A stretch of DNA of 64,000 nucleotides from the NCBI RefSeq assembly GCF_036967205.1, contig NZ_CP146022.1:620001-684000 (forward strand), written 5' to 3'. Positions 32,852-56,183 of the stretch are shown piece by piece. Under the pieces are notes generated by a model, which had not been told where the DNA came from, searched no databases, and saw only the letters and a program-made list of their open reading frames with translations. Source of the stretch: Streptomyces sp. Q6. GTDB taxonomy: Bacteria; Actinomycetota; Actinomycetes; Streptomycetales; Streptomycetaceae. Both the position numbers and the translations under genes were made by a program. The first letter of the stretch is position 1. Each line of letters opens with the position of its first letter.

Positions 32852-32883
32852 CCGAGCCGGATTCCAGCGGGGTGCGGTGGAAT
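32852..32883 (+). promoter_or_regulatory. SARP box (weak) upstream of the ABM-domain gene
   Basis: CCGAGCC (32852-32858) and TCCAGCG (32863-32869) are 11 bases apart, then eight bases, then TGGAAT (32878-32883) as a -10. The layout equals that of the stronger boxes in the cluster. Transcription would start close to the ATG at 32890, giving a nearly leaderless mRNA. Confidence 0.45.
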
Positions 32884-32889
32884 GAGCGC

Positions 32890-33174
32890 ATGGTGACGAT
32901 GATCAATCAACTGACCCTGACCGGCGACGAGAAGGCCCTCTTCGCGGTGCTCGACGAGATCTGCGCGCACATGAAGAGGCAGCCGGGCTTCGACTCGCTG
33001 CGGCTGCACCGGTCGCTGCGGACGCCCGAGCGGCTGGTGATGGTGGCCCGGTGGGAGGACGCCGCGGCGCACGCGGCGGCGTCCTCCGGCCCGCGGGTCC
33101 GGGAGTTGTTCGAGCGGCTGCGGGCCGAGGCGCGCACGGATCCCGACGTGTACGAGACGCTGCTCGAAGGGTGA
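32890..33174 (+). CDS. Antibiotic biosynthesis monooxygenase (ABM) domain protein, 94 aa
   Basis: It is short, with a single ferredoxin-like alpha/beta domain of the ABM type: MKRQPGFDSLRLHRSLRTPE, VMVARWEDAAAHAAA, and a helix before DPDVYETLL. ABM enzymes such as ActVA-ORF6 and TcmH oxidise a phenol to a quinone in aromatic polyketide tailoring using O2 without a cofactor, and they dimerise. Placed at the left edge of the type II PKS cluster, it is a good candidate for quinone formation. ATG 32890 has GGTGGA upstream; a GTG at 32872 is less likely. The residues that bind substrate vary in this family, so the exact reaction is inferred. Confidence 0.7.
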   Translation: MVTMINQLTLTGDEKALFAVLDEICAHMKRQPGFDSLRLHRSLRTPERLVMVARWEDAAAHAAASSGPRVRELFERLRAEARTDPDVYETLLEG

Positions 33175-33208
33175 GCGCGGGGGCCGGGGCGCGGGGCTGT
33201 AGTACGGG

Positions 33209-33240
33209 TCGAGCCCGGCTCCAGACAGCGGGGTCATCCT
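33209..33240 (+). promoter_or_regulatory. SARP box and -10 upstream of the flavin monooxygenase gene
   Basis: TCGAGCC (33209-33215) and TCCAGAC (33220-33226) are 11 bases apart. Eight bases later CATCCT (33235-33240) can serve as -10. The spacing is that known for SARP targets such as those of ActII-ORF4 and DnrI. Confidence 0.65.
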
Positions 33241-33262
33241 CCCGGCGGAGGTGGCAGACACC

Positions 33263-35333: not shown

Positions 35334-36284
35334 TCAGGCGTAACAGGCCGGCAGACGGCCGCCGTTGTACGCCACCAGCTCACCGAAGACGGACACGACG
35401 TCCAGAGGTTCCCCGTCCGCTCCTCCGGCCTGCTCGGCGTACGCCCGATGGAGGTTCCCGACGAGTCGTTCGGCGTCCAGCCAGTGCGCGTACGGGCCGG
35501 GACCCGCTTCGCGGGCGGTCTCCAGGGGCGTCAGCCCGGCCTTCGCGCCGTCCGCGGCGAGCCGCTGGATCCGGCGCAGATACGCGGCCGTCTCGTCCAG
35601 GACCTCCGGTCCGCAGACCGGGCCGTGCCCGCCGACCACCAGGAGCGGGTCGAGCGCGCGCAGCCGTTCGACGGCCCGCAGGGAGCCTCTGACCGAGCCC
35701 ATCAGGACGAACGGGGTGCACCCCGACATGAGGACGTCACCGGCGAACAGCACCCGCTCCCGCGGCAGCCAGACGACCGTGTCGTTGGTGGTGTGCGCGG
35801 GGCCGACGTGGATCAACTCGGCCTGCCGGTCGTCGAGATGCAGGACGAGGCGGTCCTCGTACGTGAGATGGGGCAGGGTGACGGAGATCCCGCCCCACTC
35901 GACGTCGGGCCACAGGCCGGTGAGGCCGAGACCGGCCGCGGCCATCTCCGTACGGGCCCGCTCGTGGGCGACGATCACGGCGTCCGAGCCGCCGACGACC
36001 GCGTTGCCGAAGGTGTGGTCGCCGTGGAAGTGCGTGTTGACGAGGACCCGTGGCGGACTGGCCGTGAGGTCGCCGATCGCCTGGCGCAGGGCGCGGGCCC
36101 TGGCTTCGGTGGCGGCCGTGTCGATGACGGTGACGCGGTCGGACCCGACCAGGACGCCGGCGTTGTTGACGCACCAGCCGCCCTCCGGCTGGACGTACGC
36201 GAAGACGCCGTCGGCGATCTCCCGCATCCGCTGTGGGGCGGCGGGGCGGGTGCCGTGGCCGTGCGGGGTGAGCGTCTCGGTCAT
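35334..36284 (-). CDS. Metallo-beta-lactamase-fold cyclase (ActIV-like), 316 aa
   Basis: The metal-binding motif THFHGDH is present, with further ligands in LIHVGPAHTTND, FAGDVLMSG and VVGGHGPVCGP. The fold is that of MBL hydrolases. The order ketoreductase, aromatase, MBL protein matches the actIII/actVII/actIV functions of actinorhodin, where ActIV closes the second ring and releases the chain from the ACP. It is the third gene in the leftward operon and its ATG overlaps the aromatase stop (ATGA). The same family also includes plain lactonases, so ActIV-like function rests on context. Confidence 0.82.
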   Translation of the reverse strand: MTETLTPHGHGTRPAAPQRMREIADGVFAYVQPEGGWCVNNAGVLVGSDRVTVIDTAATEARARALRQAIGDLTASPPRVLVNTHFHGDHTFGNAVVGGSDAVIVAHERARTEMAAAGLGLTGLWPDVEWGGISVTLPHLTYEDRLVLHLDDRQAELIHVGPAHTTNDTVVWLPRERVLFAGDVLMSGCTPFVLMGSVRGSLRAVERLRALDPLLVVGGHGPVCGPEVLDETAAYLRRIQRLAADGAKAGLTPLETAREAGPGPYAHWLDAERLVGNLHRAYAEQAGGADGEPLDVVSVFGELVAYNGGRLPACYA

Positions 36285-37273
36285 CGGCGACCGCTCCCGC
36301 TCTCCACGTGGGCGCGGGCCGCGGCGAGCGTGCGGCGGCTGTTGCCGCCCAGCGCCTCGCGCACCTTCGCGCGGGCGTCGGCGAGATCGGTCCCGGCGCC
36401 GAAGAACGCCGTGACGCCGTCGGGGTCGAGCGCGACACTGTGGCGTGCGATGACCCGTGTGCGGCCGTCCGCGCCCGCGGTGACGGTCCACTCGCCGCTG
36501 TGGCCGAGCAGCGGGCGCGGCACGGTCGTCTGCTTGTAGACGATCCGCGCGGTGGTCTCGCCGGGGAAGCAGAGCCGTACCGAGCGGGTGGTGTGCACCG
36601 TGCCGTCGGCGGCCGCGGTGTCCATCTCCAGCGTCTGCACCTCGGCCCCGGCCGTGGCCTCGCCCGCGGGCGTGGTGCCGAGTTCCAGGCGGGCGACGTG
36701 GGGGAGCCTGTCCGGCCAGAGGTCGGCCCGGTGCAGGAAGGCGTACACCTCGTCGGCCGGTCCGTCGATCTCCACCTCGTCGGTGAAGGAGAACACCAAC
36801 TCCCCCACCGCGTCGGTGCGTTCGGCCCAGTCGACGACCGAGGCGACCTCGGTGACGCTGTTGCCGTCGAGGGCTTCGGCCACCCAGCGCGCCGATGCGG
36901 GGTCGTCGTCGGTGAGGGTCCAGTCGTGGGCGAGGACGAGCGTACTCGTCCCCTCGGCCGGCTCGGTCGCGAACGCCCAGTGGCCGCCCATCGAGGCGAG
37001 GGGCGGGGCGCTGTTCTCCTGCCGGAACCCGATGCGCAGCCCGTCGGGGTCGAACGTGCGCCGCGAGGTCCAGCTGCGCACCTCGTGGCCGACCAGCGCC
37101 CACAGGCGGATGCGTTCGCCGTCGGGCGAGCTCTCCAGTACCTGGGCGTGCAGGCAGGGGGTGAAGTAGAGCGGCCAGTCGAGGACGTCGGCGACGATGC
37201 CGTACGCGCGGGCCGCGGGCGCCTTGAGGACGGCCGTGTGCCGGGCGGTGTGCGGGGTCACGGGAGCTCCCAT
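36281..37273 (-). CDS. Bifunctional aromatase/cyclase, two SRPBCC domains, 330 aa
   Basis: Two START/SRPBCC (polyketide cyclase) domains lie in tandem, about residues 10-150 (TAVLKAPAARAYGIVADVLD and GGHWAFATEP) and about 165-320 (FSFTDEVEIDGPADEVYAFL and GEWTVTAG). Di-domain aromatases of this size (ActVII, Gris ARO/CYC) act on C9-reduced poly-beta-ketones and aromatise the first ring by two dehydrations. This fits the ketoreductase that it follows. The ATG at 37273 overlaps the ketoreductase stop by one base, and its own stop overlaps the next start. All three are under the SARP box at 38130-38172. Confidence 0.9.
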   Translation of the reverse strand: MGAPVTPHTARHTAVLKAPAARAYGIVADVLDWPLYFTPCLHAQVLESSPDGERIRLWALVGHEVRSWTSRRTFDPDGLRIGFRQENSAPPLASMGGHWAFATEPAEGTSTLVLAHDWTLTDDDPASARWVAEALDGNSVTEVASVVDWAERTDAVGELVFSFTDEVEIDGPADEVYAFLHRADLWPDRLPHVARLELGTTPAGEATAGAEVQTLEMDTAAADGTVHTTRSVRLCFPGETTARIVYKQTTVPRPLLGHSGEWTVTAGADGRTRVIARHSVALDPDGVTAFFGAGTDLADARAKVREALGGNSRRTLAAARAHVESGSGRR

Positions 37274-38097
37274 CAGTAGTTCCCCAGTCCGCCGCACACG
37301 TTCCACGCCTGCGCGGTGACGGCGGCGGCCGCGTCGGACGCCAGGTAGCCGACCAGCGCGGCCACTTCGTCGGGGCGGCTGTAGCGGCCCAGCGGGATCT
37401 TCGCCTCGAAGCGGCTCAGCACCTCCTCCTCCGGTACGTCCCACAGGTCGGCGTAGTGCCGGCGGACCTGGCCCGCCATCGGCGTCTCGACGTAGCCGGG
37501 GCAGACGGCGTTGACGGTGATGCCGGTCCGGGCGAGCTCCAGGCCCAGCGCCTTGGTGAAGCCGATGACCCCGTGCTTGGAGGCCGAGTACGGCGCCCCG
37601 AAGACCACCCCCTGCTTCCCACCGGTGGAGGCGATGCTGATGATCCGGCCGCGGTCGCGCTCGCGCATGCCGCCGGTGGTCAGTGCCTCCTTCGTCACGA
37701 GGAAGACGCTGTTGAGGTTGGTGTCGATCACGTCGTACCAGAGCTCGTCGGGCAGGTCGGCGGTGACGCCGCCGCCGCTGCGGCCCGCGTTGTTGACGAG
37801 GACCTCGACCGGGCCGAAGCGGTCGACGGCGGCGCGCACGAACTCCCGTACCGCCGGGGCCGAGGTGACGTCGCAGACCGCGCCGTCCGCCTCGTGGCCG
37901 AGCTCGGTCAGTTCCTTGACGGTCGCGGTCAGCGCCTCCTCGTCGCGGGCGCAGAGGAAGACCGGATGCCCGCTGCCCGCCAGGGCCGCGGCCACGGCGT
38001 GGCCGATGCCCCGGGTCGCCCCGGTGACGAGGGCGGTGCCGCGGCGGGCGGCTCCGGCCTCGTGGTCCTCGGCTGTCTGCGTTGTCGTTGCGGTCAC
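37273..38097 (-). CDS. Polyketide C9 ketoreductase (ActIII type), 274 aa
   Basis: This is a short-chain dehydrogenase very close to ActIII: cofactor motif TGATRGIG (residues 25-32), catalytic Ser157, Tyr170 and Lys174 in YSASK, and the family-specific ending NVCGGLGNY. It reduces the C9 keto group of the nascent chain with NADPH. The pocket motif is RSGGG where ActIII has RPGGG (Pro94 region), a site known to influence stereochemistry. It is the first gene of the leftward ketoreductase-aromatase-cyclase operon, and its promoter region is shared with the divergent SnoaL gene. Confidence 0.92.
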   Translation of the reverse strand: MTATTTQTAEDHEAGAARRGTALVTGATRGIGHAVAAALAGSGHPVFLCARDEEALTATVKELTELGHEADGAVCDVTSAPAVREFVRAAVDRFGPVEVLVNNAGRSGGGVTADLPDELWYDVIDTNLNSVFLVTKEALTTGGMRERDRGRIISIASTGGKQGVVFGAPYSASKHGVIGFTKALGLELARTGITVNAVCPGYVETPMAGQVRRHYADLWDVPEEEVLSRFEAKIPLGRYSRPDEVAALVGYLASDAAAAVTAQAWNVCGGLGNY

Positions 38098-38129: not shown

Positions 38130-38172
38130 AATCTGTCCGACCGCCCTTGAGGCGGGCTCGAGGAGGCGTCGA
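38130..38172 (-). promoter_or_regulatory. Triple SARP box and -10 for the ketoreductase operon
   Basis: Read leftward there are three heptamers with 11-base period: TCGACGC (38172-38166), TCGAGCC (38161-38155) and TCAAGGG (38150-38144). After exactly eight bases comes CAGATT (38135-38130) as -10. This is the textbook SARP geometry. Confidence 0.78.
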
Positions 38173-38189
38173 GCCCGCTCGGCGACGCT
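38158..38189 (+). promoter_or_regulatory. SARP box for the divergent SnoaL-like gene
   Basis: TCGAGGA (38158-38164) and TCGAGCC (38169-38175) are 11 bases apart, followed eight bases later by GACGCT (38184-38189). It overlaps the leftward box, so one bound SARP set could serve both directions. Confidence 0.55.
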
Positions 38190-38237
38190 GATCCGGTTCG
38201 GCCGACCGGCCGGGACACCGTGCGACGAGGAGTGTCC

Positions 38238-38690
38238 GTGACCACCAGCGCACCGGCGGCGACCGCCGCCCTCACCGGCCTCTACGCGGAGGTCCAGCAG
38301 TTCTACGCCCGGCAGGCGCATCGCCTCGACGCCGTCCGGGCCGAGGAGTTCGCCGCGACCTTCGCCCAGGACGGGGAGTTCGAGCACTCCCCCGACTCGC
38401 CCCCGGCGCGGGGCCGCGAGGCGATCGCCGAGGAGGTGCGCGGCTTCAACGAGCGCCGCTTCGCCGACGATCCCGTGCAGCGACGGCACTGGTTCAACAT
38501 GCTGGACGTACGCCCGCAGGACGACGGCAGCATCCAGACGGAGTTCTACGCCCTGGTGGTGATCACCCGGCCCGGACAGGCCACGCCGGTGATCGCGCCC
38601 AGCTGCGTGGTGCGTGACGTGCTCGTCCGCGAGGACGGTCACCTGCGCACGCTGCGACGGAAGGTGACGCAGGATCACCTGTCGTTCTGA
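38238..38690 (+). CDS. SnoaL/NTF2-like tailoring protein, 150 aa
   Basis: A single NTF2-like cone domain with a long N-terminal helix (LYAEVQQFYARQAHRLDAVR) and the cavity strands FAATFAQDGEFEHSP and HWFNMLDVRPQDDG. The family includes polyketide cyclases, hydroxylases (SnoaL, SnoaL2) and the small subunits of ring dioxygenases. A His/Asp pair inside the cone is possible, but the reaction cannot be named. GTG 38238 is preceded by GAGGAG (38227-38232). Its own SARP box and position beside the ketoreductase place it in the polyketide pathway. Confidence 0.75.
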   Translation: MTTSAPAATAALTGLYAEVQQFYARQAHRLDAVRAEEFAATFAQDGEFEHSPDSPPARGREAIAEEVRGFNERRFADDPVQRRHWFNMLDVRPQDDGSIQTEFYALVVITRPGQATPVIAPSCVVRDVLVREDGHLRTLRRKVTQDHLSF

Positions 38691-38759: not shown

Positions 38760-39017
38760 TCAGGCGGCTCGGGCGAGCACCTCGTTCACGCCGTCGAGGA
38801 ACTGCCGCGGGGTCCGCAGATCCGACAACTCGGTGTCGTCGATCTCCACTCCGAATCGCTGGGTGACATGGGCCGCCGTCTCCAGCATGGCGAGCGAGTC
38901 GTATCCGAGGTCGGTGAACGGGGTGTCGAGGTCGGTTCCGTCGAAGGCGGTGTCCTCGTCCTCGCCGGCGCACACGGCGAGGATCTGCCGGAGGTCGTTC
39001 AGGGTGATCGTGCTCAT
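38760..39017 (-). CDS. Acyl carrier protein of the minimal PKS, 85 aa
   Basis: The phosphopantetheine site is Ser41 in DLGYDSL. Length, acidity and four-helix pattern are those of type II PKS ACPs. It is the third gene of the minimal PKS set (KS-alpha, KS-beta, ACP), 34 bases after KS-beta. It carries the growing poly-beta-ketone and must be activated by a PPTase such as the one at 56417-57079. ATG 39017 is the only start that gives a normal ACP; longer readings add an Arg/Pro-rich, non-native stretch. Confidence 0.92.
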   Translation of the reverse strand: MSTITLNDLRQILAVCAGEDEDTAFDGTDLDTPFTDLGYDSLAMLETAAHVTQRFGVEIDDTELSDLRTPRQFLDGVNEVLARAA

Positions 39018-39051
39018 GTGGGGGGTCCTCACTCCTTCGGGCCTTGGGGTG

Positions 39052-40314
39052 TCACTGGGCTTCCGGCGCGCGGACGACCACGGCGGCGTTGAATCCGCCC
39101 TGTCCGCGCGCCAGTACGAGGGCGGTGCGCACCGCGAGGGTGCGCGGCGCGTCCCGTACGAGATCGATCCGGTGGTCGGGGCCGGGCCGTGCGACGTTGA
39201 TCGTCGGGGGCACGACGCCGTCGCGTACGGACAGCAGGGCGGCCGCGACATCCAGCGCGGGACCTCCCGCGGCCAGCCGTCCGGTCATCGTCCGGGGCGC
39301 GGTCACCGGCACCCCGTACGGACCGAAGAGCGCGGTGAGGGCCGCGGTCTCCGCCCGGTCCAGGGCCGGATCACCGGCGGCGTCGGCGAACACCACGTCG
39401 ACGTCGGACGGTTCCGCGCCCGCGTCGGCGAGGGCGGTGCGGGCGGCCCGTTCGAGACCGGGTGGCCGCCCGGAGCCGGGGGCGGGGTCGAACGTGGCGG
39501 CGTATCCGGCGATCTCCCCGTAGACCTGCCGGGCTCCGCGCCGGTCCGCGGCCGCGGCGTCCTCCAGGATCAGGATCGCGCCGCCCTCCCCCGGGACATG
39601 GCCGCTCGCCCGGGTGTCGAAGGGAACGTAGGCGCGGGCGGGGTCGGGTTCCCGCGAGAGGCGGCCGCTCGCCGTGTGCGCGGCCAGGCCCCACGGGTCG
39701 AGGGCCGACTCGACACCGCCGGTGACCGTGAAGGTGCTGCCCTTGCGCAGCGTGCGGCGGGCGTGGCCGATCGCGTCGAGGCCGCCGGCCTGTTCGGAGA
39801 CGAGCACACCGCCGGCTCCGCGCATGCCGTGGCGGATGGAGATCTGGCCGGTGTTGACCGCGTAGAACCAGGCGAAGGACTCGTACACGCTGACGTGCTG
39901 CGGTCCTTGTGTCCAGAGCTTGCGGATCTCGCGGTGGGTGAACTCGAAGCCGCCCGTGGCGTTGGAGGTGATCACGCTCTTGTCGTACTCGGGGATCGTG
40001 TCGGGTTCCGCCGCCGCGTCCGCGAGGGCCCAGTCGGTGGCGGCCAGGGCCAGCCTGGTGACCCGGTCGGTCTGCGGGAGCAGCCGTCCCGGCACGTGCG
40101 CGGCGTCCTCGAAGCCCTCGATGCGGCCCACCAGTCGGGTCGGATAGCCGGTGGCGTCGAAGGAGTCGACGGGCCGGATGCCGCTGACTCCGCTGAGCGT
40201 GGCGGCCCACCACTCCTCGACACCGAGCCCGTTGGGGGCGACGACACCGATTCCGGTCACGACCGCCGTACGGGTACGGGTAGTTGTACTGGTCCGGGCC
40301 GGTGCGAGGGTCAT
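39052..40314 (-). CDS. Ketosynthase beta / chain length factor, 420 aa
   Basis: It has the ketosynthase fold ([17 protein letters not shown] at the N-terminus), but the active-site Cys is replaced by Gln175 ([12 protein letters not shown]), the hallmark of the chain length factor. It pairs with KS-alpha and sets the number of malonyl units. Its ATG overlaps the KS-alpha stop (ATGA), so the two are translated as a heterodimer in equal amounts. Chain length cannot be read from the sequence alone. It is driven from the SARP box 41647-41678. Confidence 0.93.
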
Positions 40315-41585
40315 GCCGCACTCTCCTGACGGGGTTCACGGGCGAGGACCATCGCGCTCTGGAAGCCGCCGAAGCCGCTGCCGACGCTGAGCACGGTGTC
40401 GACGGCGACCTCGCGCGCCTCGTTCGGCACGTAGTCGAGGTCGCACTCGGGGTCGGGTTCGTGCAGATTGGCGGTGGGCGGCACGGCGCCGTACTCCAGC
40501 GCGAGGGCGCAGGCCGCGATCTCGATCGAGCCGATCGCGCCCAGCGAGTGGCCGATCATGGACTTGATGGAGCTGATGGGCACGTGCCGGGCGTGGTCGC
40601 CGAGGGCGGTCTTGAAGGCGGCCGTCTCGTGCCGGTCGTTCTGCTTGGTGCCGGATCCGTGCGCGTTGACGTAGCCGACGGAGGCGGGGTCGGTGCGGCC
40701 CTCCTCCAGTGCGTGGCGGATGGCCTCGGCCATCTCCCGGCCGTCCGGCTTGAGCCCGGTCATGTGGTACGCGTTGCAGCGCGTGGCGTAGCCGGAGATC
40801 AGCCCGTACACGTGCGCTCCGCGGGCCCTCGCGTGGCCGAGTTCCTCCAGGACGAACATGGCCGCGCCCTCCGCGAGGACGAAGCCGTTGCGGGTGCGGT
40901 CGAAGGGGCGCGAGGCGTGCTCGGGCGCGTCGTTGCGCGGTGAGGTCGCCTTGATCGCGTCGAAGCAGGCCACGGCGATCGGTGAGATGGGGGTGTCGGC
41001 GGCGCCGGCCAGCATGACGTCGGCGCTGCCCTCCGCGATCAGGTCGCGGGCGTAGCCGAGGGAGTCGAGGCCGGAGGTGCAGCCGGTGGAGACGACGGCG
41101 GCCGGGCCCTCGGCGCCGACGACCCGGGCCACTTCGGCCGCGAGGGAACTGGGTACGAACGCGTCGAACAGGTGCGGGGAGATGTATCCGGCGTCGAGTT
41201 CCCAGGTGCGGCCGCTGTCGCTGAGCGCGAGGTACTCGCGTTCGAGCGTGGTGGTGCCGCCGACGGCGCTGCCGACGCTGACGCCGGTCCGCTCCGGCCG
41301 GAGTTCGGCGAACTCCAGACCGCTGTCGGCGAGGCACTCGCGGGCGCTGACCACGGCGAACTGCGCGGCCCTGTCCAGCCGGCGGATCTCGCGGGGCGTG
41401 AGTCCGTGGCGCTCGGGCGCGAAGTCGACCTCGGCGGCGATCTGCGAGCGGAACGGGGAGGGGTCGAAGAAGGAGAGGGTGCGGGTGGCGGTGCGGCCCG
41501 AGACCAGCAGGTCCCAGAAGGCCTTCTTGCCCACTCCGCCCGGTGCCACCACGCCGATCCCGGTGATGGCGACTTGTCGGTTCAC
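40311..41585 (-). CDS. Ketosynthase alpha of the minimal aromatic PKS, 424 aa
   Basis: Catalytic Cys169 lies in [11 protein letters not shown], as in ActI-ORF1. The two His are in [16 protein letters not shown] and [11 protein letters not shown]. It performs decarboxylative condensation of malonyl-ACP units with KS-beta as partner. The GTG start at 41585 overlaps the stop of the restored upstream SARP gene (GTGA). A SARP box lies inside the 3' end of that gene, so the minimal PKS can be transcribed on its own. The strong motif match makes the call secure. Confidence 0.95.
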
Positions 41586-42495
41586 TGCGGTTTTCCCCCT
41601 TGGGCGAGCGGTACGACGGACTGGGTGACGCCTGCTTGCGACGGGAAGTCTGCGGCGCCGGGCTCGAAGTCGGCTCGAGGAACGGTGGCGTTCGCGGCCG
41701 CGCCGCCGGGTACGGCGGGCGGGCGCACGGGAATCGCGTCGCCCGCCCGTACGGCCCGGTACAGCCGCCGTACGACCGGGCCCGGCGCCACCCCAACTCG
41801 GCGGCCATGGCGGTGCGCAACCGGGCGAAGGCCGCCAGCGCGTCGAAGCGGCGCCCGCAGTGGTGCAGGGCGGTCATCAGCAGCGCGCACAATTCCTCGT
41901 CGCAGGGGCGGGCCACGGCGAGGGCGGCGAGTTCACCGACCGCGTCGCGGTGACCGCCGAGCGCCATCTCTCCTGCGGCGCACCGGAGTTGGAGGGCCAG
42001 TCGGCGCCGGTCGAACTGGTCCGCGGCGGCGCGCAGCAGTCTGCCCTGCTCGACGTCGCCGAAGAGCGGACCCTCGCAGAGCGCCAGCGCGGCACGGCCC
42101 GCCCGGGTCGCCACCGCGTGGTCCCCGGCCTGGTCGGCGGTCTGGGCGACGCGTTCCAGGCGGGTGAAGCCGTCCAGGTCGCAGGAGCCCTCGCCGGCCT
42201 CGAAGCGGTAACCGCCGTACTCGGTGACCAGCACGCGTCGGGCGATCTCCGCCGGTGGCCTGGCGCAGGCACGGGCGAGCGCCTTGCGCAGCTGGAGCAC
42301 GTAGGTCTGGAGCGTCGCCGCGGCGCTGCGCGGCGGATGGCCGTCCCACAGCTCCGCCAGCAGGGCCGCGGGGGTGACCGGGTGTCCGGCGCCGAGCACC
42401 AGGAGGGCGAGGACCTGCCGGGGTTTGCGGGCCGCGGGCACCCCGTCGCCGTGCGCGCCGAGGACGTGGAAGCGTCCGAGCACGTGGACGTCCAT
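41582..42495 (-). pseudogene. SARP-family regulator (BTAD), frameshifted near the C-terminus
   Basis: The first frame has the OmpR-like DNA-binding domain (about residues 1-95: FHVLGAHGDG, RKPRQVLALLVL, LLAELWDGHPPRSA, TLQTYVLQLRKAL) and most of the bacterial transcriptional activator domain, to RTAMAAELG. There, at the C-run 41790-41793, the frame shifts. With one added base it continues [18 protein letters not shown] and ends GGKPQ at 41582, a full protein of about 304 residues. As read, it would lose the last 69 residues and run into the ketosynthase gene in the wrong frame. The DNA-binding domain and most of the activation domain remain, so partial function is possible. Start at ATG 42495 or GTG 42498. 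Confidence 0.82.
41647..41678 (-). promoter_or_regulatory. SARP box and -10 for the minimal PKS, inside the SARP gene
   Basis: Read leftward, two identical TCGAGCC heptamers (41678-41672 and 41667-41661) are 11 bases apart. After exactly eight bases comes CAGACT (41652-41647). The site lies in the 3' coding end of the SARP gene, about 60 bases before KS-alpha. Confidence 0.75.
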
Positions 42496-42564
42496 CACGG
42501 GCGGGTCCGTTCGGTGCCCGGCCGGGTCGGGGGACGTGCCCCCGCCTGCCTCGGCCCGCTGGAT

Positions 42565-42607
42565 TCCAGAGGGACTCGACCCGCGGTCGAGGCCGTCTCG
42601 CGAGGGT
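42565..42607. promoter_or_regulatory. Four-heptamer SARP box between the SARP and acyltransferase genes
   Basis: On the plus strand TCCAGAG (42565), TCGACCC (42576), TCGAGGC (42587) and TCGCGAG (42598) keep an 11-base period. GAGGGT (42602-42607) lies eight bases after the third and may be the -10 for the acyltransferase gene. On the minus strand TCGACCG, TCGAGTC and TGGAATC also run at 11 bases, so the SARP gene may regulate itself. Confidence 0.6.
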
Positions 42608-43724: not shown

Positions 43725-43948
43725 GCGATCAGCGCCGAGGGGGTCTTGAGCTCGTCGAGCTGCTCGTCGGAAATAGTGACCGGGTAGTCGTCCTGGATGC
43801 GGGTGACGAGTTCGAACACGGTCAGCGAGTCGTAGCCGAGGTCGGTGAACGTGGTGTCCAGGGTCGTCTCGTCGAGGGCGGCGGCGGCCTCGCTGTCGAG
43901 GGTGTCGTCCACGAGCTTGCGGAACTCGTCGAGGGTGAAGGCGCTCAC
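43688..43948 (-). CDS. Second acyl carrier protein (priming ACP), 86 aa
   Basis: Ser41 in DLGYDSLTVFEL is the phosphopantetheine site. It differs from the first ACP in most of its surface (MSAFTLDEFRKLVDDTLDSE), so it is a separate carrier rather than a copy. In alkyl-primed systems such as R1128 a dedicated ACP works with KSIII to build the starter. Its 3' end overlaps the convergent acyltransferase gene by 37 bases, and it is divergent from the KSIII gene across a SARP box that can be read on both strands. Confidence 0.9.
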   Translation of the reverse strand: MSAFTLDEFRKLVDDTLDSEAAAALDETTLDTTFTDLGYDSLTVFELVTRIQDDYPVTISDEQLDELKTPSALIAYVAARLTEARA

Positions 43949-48877: not shown

Positions 48878-49273
48878 ATGGACGTAGGAGTGCAGGCAGC
48901 GCGCAAGGGGCTCGACCCGGCAAGTGACGTATTCAACAGCGACTGCCCGGGTCGCACGGTCCTCGACCACGTCACCAGCCGCTGGGGGGTGCTCATCCTC
49001 GCCTCGCTGCGCGAGGGGCCGCTGCGCTTCTACGAGCTGCGGGACCGCATCGGCGGCATCAGCGAGAAGATGCTCTCCCAGAACCTACGGGTGCTCGGCC
49101 GGGACGGCCTGGTGGCCCGCGAGGTGGAGCCCACCCTGCCGCCCAAGGTGTCCTATCGCCTGACGCCGCTGGGCAGCGGTCTCGCCGGACCGTTGCAGGG
49201 CCTCCTCGACTGGGTCGCCGGCCACACGCACGACATCGTGGCGGCGCAGCGGGATCACGACGCCCAGGGCTGA
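48878..49273 (+). CDS. HxlR-family winged-helix regulator, 131 aa
   Basis: The HxlR core is unmistakable: a lone N-terminal Cys (NSDCPGRTVLDHV), then SRWGVLILASLREGPLRFYE, KMLSQNLRVLGRDGLV, and the wing REVEPTLPPKVSYRLT. Many members sense quinones or electrophiles through the N-terminal Cys. It is divergent from the DsbA-exporter pair and probably represses it until the quinone product appears, a sensible self-resistance circuit. That link is inference. The 3' end overlaps the convergent ABC ATPase gene by 19 bases. Confidence 0.9.
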   Translation: MDVGVQAARKGLDPASDVFNSDCPGRTVLDHVTSRWGVLILASLREGPLRFYELRDRIGGISEKMLSQNLRVLGRDGLVAREVEPTLPPKVSYRLTPLGSGLAGPLQGLLDWVAGHTHDIVAAQRDHDAQG

Positions 49274-50823
49274 CCTTCGCCCAGCACGGGCGCCGCGTCG
49301 ACGAGTTCTCGCGTGTACGGGTGCGCGGGGGCGACCAGCACCTGCCGCGCCGGGCCCTGTTCGACGAGGCGGCCCGCCCGCATCACCGCCACGCGGTCGC
49401 ACCACTCCCGCACCACGCCCAGATCGTGCGAGATGAGCAGCACGGCGAGCCCGAGTTCCGTGCGCAGCCTGGCGAGCAGCTCCAGGATGCGGGCCTGCAC
49501 GGAGACGTCGAGGGCGGAGACCGGTTCGTCGCAGACGAGCAGGCTCGGCCCGGGGGCGAGGGCGCGGGCGATGGCCACCCGCTGCCGCTGTCCGCCGGAG
49601 AGTTCGGCGGGACGGCGATCGAGGAGCGTGTGGCTCAGCGCCACCTGGTCGAAGAGTTCCGCCACCCGGATCCGCCGTGCGCGTCGGTCCCCGATCCCCT
49701 GGGCGCGCAGCGGTTCCTCCACGCTTCTGCGCACGCTCCAGCGCGGGTCCAGTGCGGCGTAGGGACTCTGCTGCACCAGTTGCGGGCGGTCGCCCGGCCG
49801 TTCCACCGACAGGCGGACGGATCCCGAATGGGGCCGGTCGAGGCCGGTCACCAGCCGGGCGGTGGTGGACTTCCCGCTGCCCGACTCCCCCACGAGACCG
49901 AAGACCTCGCCGTGCCCGACGGTGAACGACACCCCGTCGACCGCTCGGTGCCGCCGCCCGTACTCCTTGGTCACGGCGTCGACGACCAGCAGCGGCGCGG
50001 CCGGGTCGCCGGACGGGCGGTGGTGCGCCGGTCCCGGGGCGCGGCGTGCGGCCGCGACGAGGCGCGCGGTGTAGGCGTGCCGGGGCCGTTCCAGGACCTC
50101 ACGGGCGGGGCCGCACTCGACGATCCGGCCGCCCGACATCACCGCGATCCGGTCGGCGCGCCCGGCGGCGACGGCCAGGTCGTGGGTGATGAACAGGACC
50201 CCGATGCCCCGTTCGGCCACCAGTTCGCCGAGGCGGTCCAGGATGCGGCGCTGCACGGTGACGTCGAGGGCGCTCGTGGGCTCGTCGGCGATGAGCAGCT
50301 TGGGCCGGCAGGCGAGGGCGGCCGCGACGAGGGCGCGCTGCCGCTGTCCGCCGGAGAGTTCGTGCGGGTAGGCGCGGGCGCAGCGCTCCGGGTCGTCCAG
50401 GCCCGCCTCGGCCATCAGTTCCACGGCCCGCCGCCGGGCGAGGTCCCGCCCGGCGCGTGCGTGGACGCGCAGCGCCTCCGCGACCTGGGCGCCGACCCGC
50501 TGGACCGGGTCGAGGGAAGCCGTCGGGTCCTGCGGCACGAACCCCACCACGGCGCCGCGCAGTTCGCGCAGCTCCCGCTCCGACAGGGCCGCCGTGTCCC
50601 GGCCCGCGACGAGCGCTCGCCCGGAGCCGATCCGGCCGCCGGGCGGGAGCAGTCCGATCAGGGCGTGCGCGAGCGTGCTCTTGCCCGAGCCCGATTCACC
50701 GACGACGGCGACGACCTCCCCCGCGCCGACCGTCAGATCCACGCCTCGCAGGGCGGGTTCGGCACCGTAGGAGACGGTCAGCCCCCGTACGTCGAGCACC
50801 GGTTCACCGGTCACCGTGGTCAT
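49255..50823 (-). CDS. Dual-domain dipeptide/oligopeptide ABC ATPase (DppDF fusion), 522 aa
   Basis: Two nucleotide-binding domains are joined in one chain. The first has Walker A GESGSGKSTLA, signature LSGGQRQRAL and Walker B LLIADEPTSALD. The second has GESGSGKSTTA, LSGGQRQRVA and LLVCDEPVSALD. Each is followed by the extended C-terminal helix of peptide-type ATPases (GRIVECGPAREVL and GRLVEQGPARQVL). It energises the two permeases encoded just upstream, whose last gene it overlaps by 20 bases. Uptake of a peptide, nickel chelate or a pathway precursor is possible. Confidence 0.92.
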   Translation of the reverse strand: MTTVTGEPVLDVRGLTVSYGAEPALRGVDLTVGAGEVVAVVGESGSGKSTLAHALIGLLPPGGRIGSGRALVAGRDTAALSERELRELRGAVVGFVPQDPTASLDPVQRVGAQVAEALRVHARAGRDLARRRAVELMAEAGLDDPERCARAYPHELSGGQRQRALVAAALACRPKLLIADEPTSALDVTVQRRILDRLGELVAERGIGVLFITHDLAVAAGRADRIAVMSGGRIVECGPAREVLERPRHAYTARLVAAARRAPGPAHHRPSGDPAAPLLVVDAVTKEYGRRHRAVDGVSFTVGHGEVFGLVGESGSGKSTTARLVTGLDRPHSGSVRLSVERPGDRPQLVQQSPYAALDPRWSVRRSVEEPLRAQGIGDRRARRIRVAELFDQVALSHTLLDRRPAELSGGQRQRVAIARALAPGPSLLVCDEPVSALDVSVQARILELLARLRTELGLAVLLISHDLGVVREWCDRVAVMRAGRLVEQGPARQVLVAPAHPYTRELVDAAPVLGEGQPWAS

Positions 50824-51685
50824 CCCTCTCCTCCCGTTCCAGCGCCCGGCCCGCCCGGTTCGCCGCGAGGATCACGCCGGCGAGGACCAGGCCCGGCAGT
50901 GTCGTCAGCCACCAGGCCGTGGCGAGATAGTCACGGCCCGCCGCGATCAGCGCGCCCCACTCCGGCTCGGGCGGCGGTGCGCCGAAGCCCAGGAAGTCGA
51001 GCGCGGCCACGTTCAGCACGGCCGTACCGAACTCCAGTGCCGCGAGGACCAGGACGGGGGCGGCCGCGTTGGGCAGGATGTGCCGCAGCAGGACGGCGGC
51101 CGGACGCACCCCGGCCAGGCGCGCCGCCGCCACGTAGTCGGCGGACCGTACGCGCAGCACCTCGGCCCGCGCCACCCGGGCGATGCCCGCCACGCCGCTC
51201 ACCCCGACCGCCACCGCCACCTGGACGGTGCCGAAGCCGAGGGCCGAGACGACGGCCAGGGAGAGCAGCAGGCCCGGCAGGGCGAGCAGGACGTCGACCA
51301 GCCGCATCACCACGCCGTCGAGCCATCCGCCCACCGTCCCCGCGACCGCGCCCAGCACCGTCCCGGCCAGCAGGCCGACCGCGACGGCCAGCAGCGCGGC
51401 CCGCAGCGAGGCGCTGGTCCCGTACACCACGCGCGCGAAGACGTCCCGGCCGAGATGGTCGGTCCCGAACCAGTGCCCGCCGCTCGGCGGCAGCAGGCGG
51501 CGCAGTGGATCGGCCGCGAACGGGTCGTGTCCGGCGAACCAGGCCGGGCGCACCGCCCACAGCAGCACGAGGAGCAGGACGAGCAGCGACAGGACGAGGC
51601 CGGGTCTGCGCAGCACCACCGGCACCCGTCGGCTCCGGGGTGCGGCCGCGGGCGCCGCCACCTCTTGGTCGACGACAGCTGTCAT
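50804..51685 (-). CDS. Peptide-type ABC permease (DppC type), 293 aa
   Basis: A cytoplasmic N-terminus, a first helix (VLSLLVLLLVLLWAVRPAWF), then the DppC hallmark HWFGTDHLGRDVFARVVYG and five more helices. The EAA-type loop includes DYVAAARLAGVRPAAVLLRH. It forms a heterodimer with the DppB-type permease whose stop it overlaps (ATGA) and uses the dual ATPase downstream. ATG 51685 is fixed by that overlap. Confidence 0.9.
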   Translation of the reverse strand: MTAVVDQEVAAPAAAPRSRRVPVVLRRPGLVLSLLVLLLVLLWAVRPAWFAGHDPFAADPLRRLLPPSGGHWFGTDHLGRDVFARVVYGTSASLRAALLAVAVGLLAGTVLGAVAGTVGGWLDGVVMRLVDVLLALPGLLLSLAVVSALGFGTVQVAVAVGVSGVAGIARVARAEVLRVRSADYVAAARLAGVRPAAVLLRHILPNAAAPVLVLAALEFGTAVLNVAALDFLGFGAPPPEPEWGALIAAGRDYLATAWWLTTLPGLVLAGVILAANRAGRALEREERDDHGDR

Positions 51686-52659
51686 CCCTGCTTCACCCCC
51701 GTTCCGGCCGCGGCCGCCCGCGGATCGAGCAGCGGCACCACCAGGTCCACCAGGAGGCTCGCCGTCGCGGTGAACGCGGCGGTCAGGACGACGACGCCCT
51801 GCACCAGGGGCAGGTCCTGGTCGGTGACCGCCTCCACCGCGACCCGCCCCAGTCCGTCGCGGGCGAACACCGTCTCGACCAGCACGGCACCCGACAGCAG
51901 TTGTCCGCTGATCACGCCGAGCAGCGCGAGCACCGGGACCGACGCGTTGCGCAGGGCGTGCGCCAGGTGCAGCCGGGCCCTGCCCACGCCGCGGGCGCGC
52001 GCCGCGTCGGCGTACGGCTGGGCCAGGGCGTGCCGCATGCCACGGCCGAGGACCTGGGCGAGGACGCAGCCGACGGGCAGCGCCAGGGTCACGGCCGGAA
52101 GCAGCGCCCCTTCGAGCCCCTGGCCCCCGGTCGCGGGGAGCAGTCCCCAGCGGAAGGAGATCCACTGCATGAGCAGCAGGCCGATCCAGAAGCTCGGCAG
52201 GCCCGCCCCGAGCGCGGGCAGCGAACCGGCGAGTCTGCGCAGCGGCGCCGAACGCGGCCAACTCCCGCCCACGGCGAGGCAGATGGCGACGGTGGCGGCG
52301 AGCGGCAGGGCCAGGGCGGCGACGGCGAGCGTCGGCGGGAGCGCCTCCCAGAGGGTCCGGCCGACCGACGCGCCGCTGCGGACCGAGAGCCCCAGGTCGC
52401 CGTGGAGGGCACGGCCGAGCGACGAGACGTACTGTTCGGCGGCCGACCGGTCGAACCCGAGCCGGTGCCGCAGCGCGGCGACCTGCGCGGGGTCGACCGC
52501 CGCGGCGTCCGCGCCGGACTCCCCCGCGAGCATCGTCTCCACGGGGTCGCTCGGCAGCAGGTACAGCACGGCGAACGAGAGCGTGTACGCGGCCCACACG
52601 ACGAGGACGACCCGGGCGAGACGGCGCGCCAGGTAGCGGACGAACACGGCACGGGCCAT
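51682..52659 (-). CDS. Peptide-type ABC permease (DppB type), 325 aa
   Basis: The N-terminal RYLARRLARVVLVVWAAYTL and LYLLPSDPVETMLAG are typical of DppB/OppB permeases, followed by the remaining five helices and the EAA loop AQPYADAARARGVGRARLHL. It lies three bases after the binding-protein gene and overlaps the DppC gene, so the four genes form one tight operon. Confidence 0.9.
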   Translation of the reverse strand: MARAVFVRYLARRLARVVLVVWAAYTLSFAVLYLLPSDPVETMLAGESGADAAAVDPAQVAALRHRLGFDRSAAEQYVSSLGRALHGDLGLSVRSGASVGRTLWEALPPTLAVAALALPLAATVAICLAVGGSWPRSAPLRRLAGSLPALGAGLPSFWIGLLLMQWISFRWGLLPATGGQGLEGALLPAVTLALPVGCVLAQVLGRGMRHALAQPYADAARARGVGRARLHLAHALRNASVPVLALLGVISGQLLSGAVLVETVFARDGLGRVAVEAVTDQDLPLVQGVVVLTAAFTATASLLVDLVVPLLDPRAAAAGTGVKQG

Positions 52660-52662
52660 GGC

Positions 52663-54237
52663 TCAGGCCAGCCAGGTGTCGTACAGCGAGAGCCGGTTCG
52701 AGGCGTCGAGCCGCAGCCCTCGCACGCGGTGGGTGTACGCCACGGTCGTGCGGGTCTCGCTGACCGGCAGCACGAAGCCGTCCCGTACGAGAGCGCTCTG
52801 GACGGCGGTGAAGTCGGCGGTGCGGGTCTTCTCGTCGGGGGACGCCGACGCCGCGTGCAGCCGGTCCCTGAGGTCTGGTGCGGCGACGGGGCTCTGGTCG
52901 GCGAAGACGGTAGTGAGGACGTCGGGGTCGGCCCGGCCGGCGTTCTGGAGGGTGAGGTCGTAGTCCTTGGACTTCAGGGTCTGCGGGAACTGGTTGATGG
53001 TCAGCTGGCGCAGTCTCAGTTCCACGCCGATCTCCTTGTACTGCTGCTGGACCAGCTCCAGGCTCTGCTGCCGTACGAAGATCGCGTCCACGACCAGGCG
53101 CTTGCCGTTCCTGGTGCGGACGCCGTCGCCGCCCTTGTGCCACCCCGCGTCGTCGAGGAGCCGCTCGGCGCCGGCCGCGTCGTGGGCGAGGTCCGCGGTG
53201 AGGTCGCGGTAGCCGGGGGTGGTGGAGGAGAGCACGCCGGTGGCGGCCGCGTCCGCGGAGCCGAGGAAGGCGGTGGCGACGGCGGTGCGGTCGATGCCCT
53301 TCTGGAGTGCGCGCCGCACGCGGACGTCACGCAGCTCCGGGCGCTCGGCATTCACGTAGAGACTCAGGACGACACCGGGGTCGGTCCGTGTCAGGAGCCG
53401 GAAGTCGCCCTGGGTGAACCGCTCGGCGTCCTGCGGGGCGACGGGTGTGACGGCGTCGAGCCGTCCGGCGGAGAGGCTGCCGGAGCGGGTCGTGCTCTCC
53501 GGCACGATCCGGTACTCGACCCGCTTGAGGTAGGCGCCGCCCTCGTGCCGCCAGCGCGTCGAGCCCCAGTGGTAGCCGCTCCTGCGGGCGAGGGTGACCG
53601 AGGTGTTGGGGCGGTAGGCGCCGACGGTGAAGGGCCCGGATCCGGCGATCTCGCCCCGGCAGCGTTCCTGGGGCGTGCGGGTCAGGGTCTTGGGCGAGAG
53701 CAGTCCGAGCGAGGTGGTCGAGGTCGCCCTGAGGAACTGGGCGTTGGGCCGGTCGAAGACCACGGTCGCCGTGTGCGCGTCCTCGACGACGGTCCTGCGG
53801 TACCCGGACAGGTAGACGGCTCCGCGCGAGGACGCGGCGCCGAGGTCGTGGAGGGCGTCGAGGTTCTTCTTGACCGCGGTCGCGTCGACGGCTCCGCCGT
53901 CGCTGAAGGTGGCGCCGTCGCGCAGCCGGAAGGTGAAGCGCGTGGCCTTGGCGTCGGTGGTCCAGGACGTCGCGAGCCACGGCACGAGCCGGCCCGTCCT
54001 CGGATCCTGGTCGGTGAGTGAATCCACCACCTGACGGCCGATGTTGAGGCTCTGGCCGAGCGCGGACTGCTGCGGATCGAGGCAGACGGGGTCGAAGTCC
54101 AGGGCGAGTCGCAAGGTGCCGCCGGACCGGGGCGGCCCGGAGTATCCGGCGTCGCTCGTGGCTCCCGAACAGGCGCTCGCGCCCGCGGCGAGGACCAGGG
54201 CGAGAGCCACGGCGGTGGAACGGGGGTGCGGGTGCAT
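52663..54237 (-). CDS. Peptide-type ABC substrate-binding lipoprotein, family 5, 524 aa
   Basis: The signal ends with the lipobox ALVLAAGASACSG, so the protein is membrane-anchored outside. The body carries the family 5 pattern: VVDSLTDQDPRTGRLVPWLA, RLRDGATFSDGGAVDATAVK, and a large second lobe (YNGQ-less variant with GWHKGGDGVRTRNGKRL). It may bind a peptide, nickel complex or glycoside. ATG 54237 is chosen for the signal sequence and the GGAG upstream. It begins 46 bases after the DUF1684 gene and could be read through from the SARP-controlled promoter at 56092-56134, which would tie it to the antibiotic pathway. Confidence 0.9.
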   Translation of the reverse strand: MHPHPRSTAVALALVLAAGASACSGATSDAGYSGPPRSGGTLRLALDFDPVCLDPQQSALGQSLNIGRQVVDSLTDQDPRTGRLVPWLATSWTTDAKATRFTFRLRDGATFSDGGAVDATAVKKNLDALHDLGAASSRGAVYLSGYRRTVVEDAHTATVVFDRPNAQFLRATSTTSLGLLSPKTLTRTPQERCRGEIAGSGPFTVGAYRPNTSVTLARRSGYHWGSTRWRHEGGAYLKRVEYRIVPESTTRSGSLSAGRLDAVTPVAPQDAERFTQGDFRLLTRTDPGVVLSLYVNAERPELRDVRVRRALQKGIDRTAVATAFLGSADAAATGVLSSTTPGYRDLTADLAHDAAGAERLLDDAGWHKGGDGVRTRNGKRLVVDAIFVRQQSLELVQQQYKEIGVELRLRQLTINQFPQTLKSKDYDLTLQNAGRADPDVLTTVFADQSPVAAPDLRDRLHAASASPDEKTRTADFTAVQSALVRDGFVLPVSETRTTVAYTHRVRGLRLDASNRLSLYDTWLA

Positions 54238-54283
54238 CGCGGGTGGTACTCCTTCGGCTCCTACGGCGGAACGCCGGCGGCCC

Positions 54284-55135
54284 TCAGCCGTACGGGGCGA
54301 GCTCCCCCGCCTCGACGGCGATCGGCAGGGTGTTGCCCGTGGGCGGCAGGGCGCAGGTGGCGAACGGGGTGAACGCACAGGGCGGGTTGATGGCGCGGTT
54401 GAAGTCGAGGACGACGCTCCGTCCGTCGAGCAGATCACCTTCGGGCCGACAGGCGTAGAGCACGCGGGCGGCGCCGTACGAGGTCGCCCCGCTGGTCAGG
54501 TCCCGGAAGGGAATGTTGAGGACGCCGTCCCTGCCGCCGTAGGGCTCCAGGGTCAGATCGCGTCCCGCGAGGGTGAAGCGCAGCCGCCCCGAGAGGGTGA
54601 ACTCCCGTCGGACCGTGTCGAGCGCGGTGTCCAGGACGATGCGACGCGGGTGCTTGTACGGCTCGTAGACCGCGCGGGTCACCCACTCGGGGCGCGGCGG
54701 GTGGACGGGCACGTCGGTGAACCGGAGCAGCGTGGGTGCCTGGGGCGAGCGGACCCTGATCGCCCAGCGGATCCGCCGGGGGCGGTCCGCGTCCTCGAAG
54801 CCGAGCACGTCGACGCGCAGGTCGCGGAAGGTGACCTGGACCGCGCCGCCGTGGGGCGGGACGACGCCGCCCTGCCGTACGGTCCGGTCGCCGTCGACGA
54901 CGACCCCGTCGACGCGCAGCCCTTCGTCGGCGGCGGCCCGCACCCGTACGCCGGAGTCGTCGGCCTGCCAGCTGCCGGGGACGTCGTCGAACCGCTGCGC
55001 CTTGGCGTCGAGCCAGTGCAGGGCGACCGGGGAGAGGATCCCGTACGGCTCCCGCAGTTGCGCGAGCCGGGCGGTCCGCCACTCCTGCCAGGAGGCCAGG
55101 AAGCCGGCTGCCTCGGCCGTCGGCCCGGCCGTCAC
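54284..55135 (-). CDS. DUF1684 domain protein, 283 aa
   Basis: The family's core is clear: SWQEWRTARLAQLREPYGIL near the N-terminus, then VRSPQAPTLLRFTDVPVHPP, REFTLSGRLRFTLAGRDLTL and the conserved final block VVLDFNRAINPPCAFTPFAT. DUF1684 proteins are about 200-290 residues, soluble, and of unknown activity. The GTG start overlaps the dehydrogenase stop (GTGA), so it is translationally coupled to a probable tailoring enzyme and likely has a pathway role. Confidence 0.82.
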   Translation of the reverse strand: MTAGPTAEAAGFLASWQEWRTARLAQLREPYGILSPVALHWLDAKAQRFDDVPGSWQADDSGVRVRAAADEGLRVDGVVVDGDRTVRQGGVVPPHGGAVQVTFRDLRVDVLGFEDADRPRRIRWAIRVRSPQAPTLLRFTDVPVHPPRPEWVTRAVYEPYKHPRRIVLDTALDTVRREFTLSGRLRFTLAGRDLTLEPYGGRDGVLNIPFRDLTSGATSYGAARVLYACRPEGDLLDGRSVVLDFNRAINPPCAFTPFATCALPPTGNTLPIAVEAGELAPYG

Positions 55136-56067
55136 GACAGCTCCGTGAGCGCGGCGATGACGGCGTTCTGGCCCTGGTCGCGCCGGGTGGCGAGTGCGTC
55201 GTAGGACTCCTGGCCGAAGGATGCCTCGGCCTGCTCCAGGAGCAGCGCGACGGTGTCCGCGTCGACGGGCGGCCGGCCCAGGCCGTCCCAGCTGCGTTCG
55301 AGGCCGTCTCCCAGGTGGGCGAACCAGTGCCGCAGCCCGCCCGCGCCGCCGCCCAGGTGGAACGCCTGGAAGGGGCCGACCACGGCCCAGCGCGACCCGA
55401 TCGACGCGGTGACCACGGCGTCCAGTTCGTCGACGGTGACCACGCCCTCGCGCACCAGGTGGATGCTCTCGCGCAGCAGCGCTGACTGGAGCCGGTTGGC
55501 CACGAACCCGGGGACGGCTCGGCGCAGCACCACCGGGGTCTTGCCGAGCTCCCGGTAGAAGCCGACGGCCCGGTCGACCAGGCCGGGTTCCGCCCGCTCG
55601 GAGGCGACGACCTCGACCAGGGGCACGATGTGCGGCGGGTTGAACGGGTGCCCGACGACGACCCGGCCGGGCGTGGGGAGTTCGGCTCCGAGGTCGTCGG
55701 GCAGCAGGGTGGAGGTGGAGGAGAGCAGCAGCGCGTCCCGCGGGGCGGCGGCGGCGATCCGGGCGAACAGCTTCTGCTTGAGGGCGAGGTCCTCCAGGGC
55801 GTTCTCCTGCACGACGTCGGCGCCCTCGACGGCCGCGTCGACGCTCGCCGTGAACTCCAGGCGGGCGAACAACTCCTCGGGATCCAGCGGCCCTTCGGGC
55901 AGGGTGGCCGCGTACCGCACCAGTTCCGCCCGCACATGCGCCTCGGCGTCCGACCGGGTGCTGCTCACCCGTACGTCCAGTCCGCGCGCGGCGAACAGGG
56001 CGATCCACCCGAGTGCGATGGTGCCGGTGCCGATCACCGCCGCGGTCCGCTGTCGTTCCACGCTCAC
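55132..56067 (-). CDS. 3-hydroxyacyl-CoA dehydrogenase family reductase (ActVI-ORF1-like), 311 aa
   Basis: The NAD-binding start is VIGTGTIALGWIALFAARG, with ENALEDLALKQ and VVGHPFNPPHIVPLVEVV as in this family, and a C-terminal helical domain (GFVANRLQSALLRE, GSRWAVVGPFQAFH). ActVI-ORF1 of the actinorhodin pathway belongs here and sets the C3 stereocentre before pyran closure. Finding it in a cluster with ActIII, ActIV and ActVA-like genes supports a benzoisochromanequinone-type product. The GTG at 56067 has AGGAG six bases upstream. It is first in its operon, under the SARP box at 56092-56134. Confidence 0.85.
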   Translation of the reverse strand: MSVERQRTAAVIGTGTIALGWIALFAARGLDVRVSSTRSDAEAHVRAELVRYAATLPEGPLDPEELFARLEFTASVDAAVEGADVVQENALEDLALKQKLFARIAAAAPRDALLLSSTSTLLPDDLGAELPTPGRVVVGHPFNPPHIVPLVEVVASERAEPGLVDRAVGFYRELGKTPVVLRRAVPGFVANRLQSALLRESIHLVREGVVTVDELDAVVTASIGSRWAVVGPFQAFHLGGGAGGLRHWFAHLGDGLERSWDGLGRPPVDADTVALLLEQAEASFGQESYDALATRRDQGQNAVIAALTELS

Positions 56068-56091
56068 CGGTGCTCCTCTCGTCCGGGGACC

Positions 56092-56134
56092 AGGCTCGGC
56101 GCCGTGACTCGAGGGCTGCTCGAGAGGGGATGGA
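56092..56134 (-). promoter_or_regulatory. Triple SARP box and -10 for the dehydrogenase operon
   Basis: Read leftward, TCCATCC (56134-56128), TCGAGCA (56123-56117) and TCGAGTC (56112-56106) repeat every 11 bases, then eight bases, then GAGCCT (56097-56092). The start codon follows 24 bases after the -10. Confidence 0.72.
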
Positions 56135-56165
56135 GACGGGCTCGGGGCGGCGTGCGGCGGCTCGT

Positions 56166-56183
56166 TCGAGACGGATTCGAGGC
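56166..56183 (+). promoter_or_regulatory. Rightward double TCGAG heptamer
   Basis: TCGAGAC (56166-56172) and TCGAGGC (56177-56183) are 11 bases apart, pointing to the small gene at 56271. No convincing -10 lies exactly eight bases on; TAGGCA at 56190-56195 is nearer. Confidence 0.45.

Follow-up and report, generated by a model that had tools for sequence, protein, structure and literature searches.

The window analyzed here, a 64,000-nucleotide stretch of Streptomyces sp. Q6 (G000:C1:620001-684000, from a genome of 8.95 Mb in two contigs), carries a type II polyketide cluster, as judged by Pfam and by the relatives of its chain-length factor (CLF). Its gene set comprises a ketosynthase alpha (KS-alpha), CLF, two acyl carrier proteins (ACPs), a ketoreductase (KR), a two-domain cyclase, a metallo-beta-lactamase (MBL)-fold hydrolase, a SnoaL-like protein, an acyltransferase, KS III, a flavin reductase-like protein, an acyl-CoA dehydrogenase, an NmrA-like protein, and two small Streptomyces antibiotic regulatory proteins, SARP1 and SARP2. 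Interspersed with these genes are TCGAG-type heptamers repeated at an 11-bp period, which are the subject of this report and very probably represent the sites of a canonical SARP regulon. Gene starts are approximate and come from a codon-phase gene caller; the 13 transcription units referred to below were deduced from strand and adjacency alone.

The exact pair TCGAG-N6-TCGAG occurs six times in the window, at five places (56108 on the minus strand and 56109 on the plus strand being one place read on both strands), compared to a mean of 0.33 in dinucleotide-preserving shuffles, none of 100 of which reached six. Any other period between 5 and 44 gave at most three pairs, both strands summed. 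A sequence-only reading of this DNA had described such heptamers at an 11-base period across the cluster, and the counts bear it out. With the -10 included, the full rule consists of two TCGAG-type heptamers at an 11-bp period plus a hexamer of the form xAxxxT located 8 nt past the second heptamer. With up to one mismatch it matched eight times in the window (shuffle mean, 0.30; 0/100 reaching 8); overlapping pairs within one array are not independent, and 56109+ was not counted as a promoter because its single mismatch falls in the -10. Between 32 and 57 kb, xAxxxT stands at offset 8 in 7 of the 16 pairs with at most one mismatch; one box further, at offset 19, it stands in four, and the remaining offsets from 0 to 24 have none or one each, while none of the four pairs between 1 and 32 kb has the hexamer at offset 8. 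The P value for the clustering of 5 of 23 places (3.9e-9) was computed after the fact, because the region had been picked by the sequence-only reading.

Across the whole genome, the exact full rule matched four times, always within the cluster (38158+, 41647-41678 minus, 44030+, and 56092-56123 minus). Exact pairs without regard to the -10 number 24 genome-wide (reversed-pattern control, 7), and none of the 18 outside the window has xAxxxT at the rule spacing. When one mismatch was allowed, the full rule gave 26 matches, of which 18 lie outside the window and 8 inside it, and is therefore not cluster specific, whereas the exact rule is.

The rule recurs in related loci. In Streptomyces sp. VRA16 Mangrove soil, whose cluster (locus L035) is the nearest named one among the matches listed (CLF 93% identical), the three exact matches in the genome all belong to the orthologous cluster. 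Allowing one mismatch raises the count to 15, eight of them in that cluster, including the counterparts of 33209, 38130, and 42576, and seven elsewhere (reversed control, 8). A likely counterpart of 56092, by order and spacing of the unaligned sequences, lies at G392:C37:126105-126136 (minus strand, one mismatch). Five stretches of the window align with L035, and in them the boxes and -10s are kept at 33209, 38130-38189, 41647, 42576, and 44002-44061; at 41647-41678 one spacer base differs while the boxes and -10 are identical.

We also examined CLF loci, defined as the best 80 of the matches listed, or 79 without L035. In the 79, xAxxxT stands at offset 8 in 49 of 68 exact pairs (next best offset between 0 and 24, 9), and control periods of 8, 9, 10, 12, and 13 gave none at that offset and a period of 14 one of two. 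These 49 exact one-sided sites are distributed over 37 loci, and the next gene points away from the -10 in 48 of them. Of 78 loci, L035 among them, 41 carry the rule with at most one mismatch (26 of them without any) in the 350 nt preceding KS-alpha, as opposed to 0/78 with the mirrored control, L051 and L055 being absent from this count because they lack a KS-alpha match of 300 bits. Loci L036 to L114 also contain period-13 TCGAG pairs, 10 of 13 with xAxxxT at offset 19, perhaps related loci counted repeatedly.

Within the window, 8 of the 13 transcription units fit the rule, fewer than the "almost every" unit originally claimed: those of the acyl-CoA dehydrogenase, the KR operon, the SnoaL-like gene, the minimal polyketide synthase (PKS), the acyltransferase, the second ACP, KS III, and the 3-hydroxyacyl-CoA dehydrogenase (3HCDH), the last being the first gene of a collinear minus-strand run that continues through an opp-type ABC transporter (Table 1). 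All five -10 hexamers of the sequence-only reading (CATCCT, CAGATT, CAGACT, CAGGCT, and GAGCCT) are present, but three more had been missed: GACGCT, which follows 38158+; GAGGGT, which follows 42576+; and the minus-strand GACGGT at 44002-44007. The putative KR operon promoter is the minus-strand reading of 38130-38161, with 0 or 1 mismatch, 38158+ and 44030+ are those assigned to the SnoaL-like gene and KS III, and that of the second ACP was recognized through the symmetric pattern described below. For seven genes the gap between the -10 (last base) and the start codon is between 24 nt (3HCDH) and 94 nt (KS III) long; for the acyl-CoA dehydrogenase it is about 22 nt.

Table 1. Putative SARP sites and genes of the polyketide cluster, in window coordinates
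Feature	Coordinates	Strand	Basis or remarks
Box pair with -10 CATCCT, before acyl-CoA dehydrogenase (start ~33263)	33209..33240	+	1 mismatch; kept in L035, found in VRA16 genome search
Three-box symmetric array; CAGATT leftward to KR operon, GACGCT rightward to SnoaL-like gene	38130..38189	both	kept in L035
Box pair with -10 CAGACT, before KS-alpha	41647..41678	-	exact full rule
Box pair with -10 GAGGGT, before acyltransferase	42576..42607	+	1 mismatch; found in VRA16 search
Three-box symmetric array; CAGGCT rightward to KS III, GACGGT leftward to second ACP	44002..44061	both	kept in L035
Box pair with -10 GAGCCT, before 3HCDH	56092..56123	-	exact full rule
Exact TCGAG pair without -10 at rule spacing	56166..56181	+	hexamer GGCACG
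KR, two-domain cyclase, MBL-fold hydrolase	35334..38097	-	Pfam, codon-phase caller
SnoaL-like gene	38220..38690 (start 38220 or 38238)	+	Pfam, codon-phase caller
Minimal PKS: KS-alpha, CLF, ACP	38760..41585	-	Pfam, codon-phase caller
SARP1, second small SARP	41583..42498	-	Pfam; intact orthologue L035:7816-8712
Acyltransferase	42648..43724	+	Pfam
Second ACP	43688..43948	-	Pfam
KS III and flavin reductase-like gene	44156..45681	+	Pfam; NCBIfam search
SARP2, small SARP, candidate activator	45698..46519	-	Pfam; PDB relatives EmbR, AfsR
3HCDH, one further gene, opp-type ABC transporter genes	49255..56067	-	Pfam, codon-phase caller

Most of the sites first listed stood, with two exceptions. At 32852 the boxes have two mismatches and the hexamer, TGGAAT, lacks the A at the second base. 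At 56166 the boxes are exact, but the hexamer at the rule spacing, GGCACG, is not of the -10 form. A small plus-strand open reading frame (56220-56465) lies behind the 56166 boxes, but the codon-phase caller does not count it among the genes; a possible VRA16 counterpart of 56166, G392:C37:126180+, does have xAxxxT, with one box mismatch.

The boxes at 41647-41678 sit within the 3' coding part of SARP1, the last bases of which overlap the start of KS-alpha. A site inside a SARP coding region, as the sequence-only reading had it, is therefore real, but the host gene is SARP1 and not SARP2. As a general device, a SARP box within a SARP gene is unsupported among the 77 KS-alpha loci other than L035; three of the 77 (L062, L077, and L088) combine a box match with a same-strand SARP match ending at most 500 nt upstream of KS-alpha.

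Both SARPs are of the small form. SARP2 (273 aa), correctly named as a SARP in the sequence-only reading, has an OmpR-type winged-helix DNA-binding domain (Trans_reg_C, residues 22 to 78) followed by BTAD (residues 106 to 251), and among PDB chains it matches EmbR (7e-37) and AfsR (7e-36 to 2e-35; chains 8hvr, 8k60, and 8jke). TTA codons are linked to bldA. SARP2 has one, at residue 49, which is absent from the L035 orthologue, a possible strain difference in bldA dependence. In SARP1 the same two domains are detected by Pfam, and the frame is broken by a single uncompensated one-base difference from L035 near 41792, beside a G/C run. The acyl-CoA dehydrogenase gene (33263-34416) has an uncompensated one-base difference from L035 as well, near 33487 and again beside a G/C run; both breaks could be either real mutations or assembly errors. 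A published Streptomyces rimosus genome is reported to contain a one-base insertion in otcR (PMC4393881).

The geometry of the sites is that of the published SARP rule, in which the repeats are 11 bp apart and the 3' repeat is 8 bp from the -10 (PMC10936776, PMC4393881). The sequence-only reading had pointed to the same geometry, and neither the rule nor this type of regulon is new (PMC10936776, PMC10972967, PMC4393881). The cluster resembles the ActII-ORF4, DnrI, and OtcR regulons in its 11-bp repeats, in the 8 bp to the -10, and in the location of sites before biosynthetic genes, the likeness to ActII-ORF4 and DnrI being by the published rule. It differs in having two SARP genes and one site inside a SARP gene. 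On the afsS promoter, AfsR presents further parallels, namely, a SARP dimer, two 11-bp repeats overlapping the -35, and sigma adaptation: by cryo-electron microscopy, two neighboring AfsR protomers occupy the pair of 11-bp repeats and offer sigma region 4 a docking surface in place of a -35 (PMC10936776). The box sequence is another one, however, and SARP1 and SARP2 are small.

By analogy with these systems, we infer that a cluster-encoded small SARP (SARP1, SARP2, or both) would bind the boxes and activate transcription. A SARP dimer spanning two heptamers that are spaced by one helical turn would replace the -35 element and provide the docking point for sigma region 4, making usable the weak -10 located eight bases downstream. 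The eight fitting promoters would then switch on together once the SARP is made. At the level of sequence, this interpretation of the boxes as SARP-controlled sites is supported, and we regard it as very probable.

Two of the sites have a symmetry that the sequence-only reading did not see. Since TCGA is its own reverse complement, an array of such cores can be read from both strands, and at 38130-38189 and 44002-44061, both located between divergent genes and both kept in L035, three cores one turn apart are flanked on either side by a -10, both times at exactly the rule spacing. The corresponding 60-bp self-complementary pattern, ANNNT-N12-TCGA-N7-TCGA-N7-TCGA-N12-ANNNT, was sought in 392 Streptomyces genomes with up to one mismatch; 44 of them contain it, at 57 sites in all (18 exact), and the reversed control gave none. 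When both spacings were made one base longer, so that the pattern was still self-complementary, only 5 sites in 5 genomes were found, none exact and two of them alike by eye. With one extra base in the left spacing alone, 24 genomes yielded 26 oriented matches, of which a single one was exact; some were the same arrays, their mismatch now falling at an end. Of the 57 sites, 55 were examined further (all but a second copy each in G129 and G208), namely, 53 with their surroundings plus the two in the window; these 55 form 26 sequence families, 7 with exact members. According to the codon-phase caller, none of the 55 lies inside a gene; 37 are between divergent genes, 10 between two plus-strand genes, and 7 between two minus-strand genes, and one has no called right neighbor. 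Given that the one-sided sites of the CLF loci are mostly divergent anyway (39/49), it is the spacing controls, not the gene layout, that carry the argument for a shared array. Whether the middle core alone is biased toward being readable both ways was assessed over the 26 family representatives, with no pattern found.

How such arrays might work we infer from the same mechanism: the middle core would be common to both promoters, paired with core 3 for the rightward and with core 1 for the leftward one. Two dimers, on cores 1 and 2 and on cores 2 and 3, could not share the middle core at once, and therefore the divergent promoters would fire in turn or compete. We tentatively propose that Streptomyces uses a 60-bp self-complementary module in which a three-core SARP array serves two divergent promoters, alternating or competing, through a shared middle core. 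Our confidence in this two-way use is lower than in the regulon itself. The divergent intergenic regions of oxy and ctc were expected to hold bidirectional promoters, and OtcR sites were sought and found in such regions, with repeats listed for the promoters there (PMC4393881). Sites with three heptamers, as here, are reported for dnrD, actII-ORF1, actVI-ORF1, vlmJ, vlmA-vlmH, and fdmD (PMC10972967); in the present arrays the third heptamer would belong, as its outer box, to the promoter on the other side. The ActII-ORF4, DnrI, and OtcR accounts, in their text as distinct from their figures, speak of direct repeats and not of one self-complementary array for both sides. No description of a shared two-way self-complementary SARP array came up in searches of open-licence papers, in the abstracts and text passages covered; subscription-only older work on act, dnr, and vlm lay outside that scope.

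Several results weigh against these interpretations. As regards the regulon, five of the 13 units (the genes at 28428-33174, SARP1, SARP2, a major facilitator superfamily gene, and HxlR) have no site, SARP1 is broken in this assembly while its L035 orthologue is intact, and the 18 one-mismatch matches outside the window compare to 4 for the reversed control. As regards the arrays, two box mismatches occur when 44002-44061 is read on the minus strand. Counted by families, the excess over the control with one wrong spacing is modest (26 families, 7 with exact members, versus 20 and 1 in the control); families with both -10s intact number 18 versus 8 in that control, an excess below that of the raw counts. 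The gene layout depends on the caller as well, since the one used first (longest open reading frame) placed only 14 of 53 sites between divergent genes and many arrays inside genes, and the second, in which starts are weighed by codon phase with a ribosome-binding bonus, was adopted after that result. Within the flanking stretch searched, a KS-alpha or CLF match (E <= 1e-40) was found at only 21 of 53 sites and a SARP1 or SARP2 match at 20 of 53. Finally, there are two symmetric arrays in the 79 CLF loci, by estimate not above chance among about 105 one-sided rows.

Some symmetric matches lie in other settings. L183:13640, L191:11855, L202:7177, and L187:7551 are between genes of the same direction. 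L180:7981 and L207:8055, one array family in two genomes, are in divergent gaps whose flanking stretch, as far as searched, gave no match to KS, CLF, or SARP, and several other sites likewise have none. Such sites belong perhaps to other cluster kinds or to another activator.

That the boxes are products of chance or compositional repeats of GC-rich DNA is hardly credible. TCGAG is indeed frequent in the window, with 149 and 132 single copies on the two strands, and the relaxed rule matches elsewhere in the genome; yet the pairs concentrate at a period of 11, no shuffle reached the observed counts, and these controls are low (4 versus 26 for the reversed rule, 0/78 versus 41 for the mirrored one, 0 for the reversed symmetric pattern). 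We also consider it very doubtful that the sites are occupied by an outside activator, be it a large AfsR-like SARP or a member of another family recognizing this box, instead of by SARP1 or SARP2. AfsR boxes do share the 11-bp period (PMC10936776), but the AfsR repeat, CGTT(T/C)ATCGNN (PMC10972967), is unlike TCGAGCC, and the confinement of the exact full-rule matches to the cluster is as expected of a pathway-specific activator. The presence of two SARPs, and of boxes at 42576-42602 between SARP1 and the acyltransferase gene, would suit a two-step cascade in which SARP2 activates SARP1 and SARP1 activates the biosynthetic promoters. When 42576 is read leftward as a SARP1 promoter, however, there is no xAxxxT at offset 8 (ATCCAG; likewise in L035, by reading of the alignment), and with SARP1 broken in this assembly the cascade appears rather improbable.

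In a different alternative, the SARP sites are real but each symmetric array drives transcription in a single direction, its other -10 being decorative or belonging to an unrelated promoter. This finds some backing in the better forward heptamers at 44002 (TTGAGCC, TCGAGCC, and TCGAGAC versus TCGATCC, TCGATCC, and TCAAGCC in reverse), with the same tendency at 38130, and in the mere two symmetric arrays among the 79 CLF loci. On the other side are the 57 symmetric sites compared to 5 for the control with an extra base in both spacings and, in the window, the lack of any other one-mismatch site in the gaps 38097-38220 and 43948-44156. On balance, one-way firing seems somewhat unlikely, although the shared two-way array that we propose is itself tentative.

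If the two-way module exists, alternation or competition between the promoters would determine how much of one gene product is made relative to the other, and the shared core could explain the third heptamer in some SARP sites as a testable two-way switch. It would also offer a compact divergent promoter part. The exact rule, having no match elsewhere in the 9-Mb genome, can help to draw the borders and operons of the cluster, and the rule brings the 3HCDH/transporter run at 49 to 56 kb into the putative regulon.

In that run, the stretch 54287-55135 has no NCBIfam match. The MBL-fold gene (35334-36284) adjoins the KR and cyclase genes, and among the best 25 of 42 matches the beta-lactamase models score under their cutoffs, for which reason this gene more likely encodes a hydrolase of the pathway.

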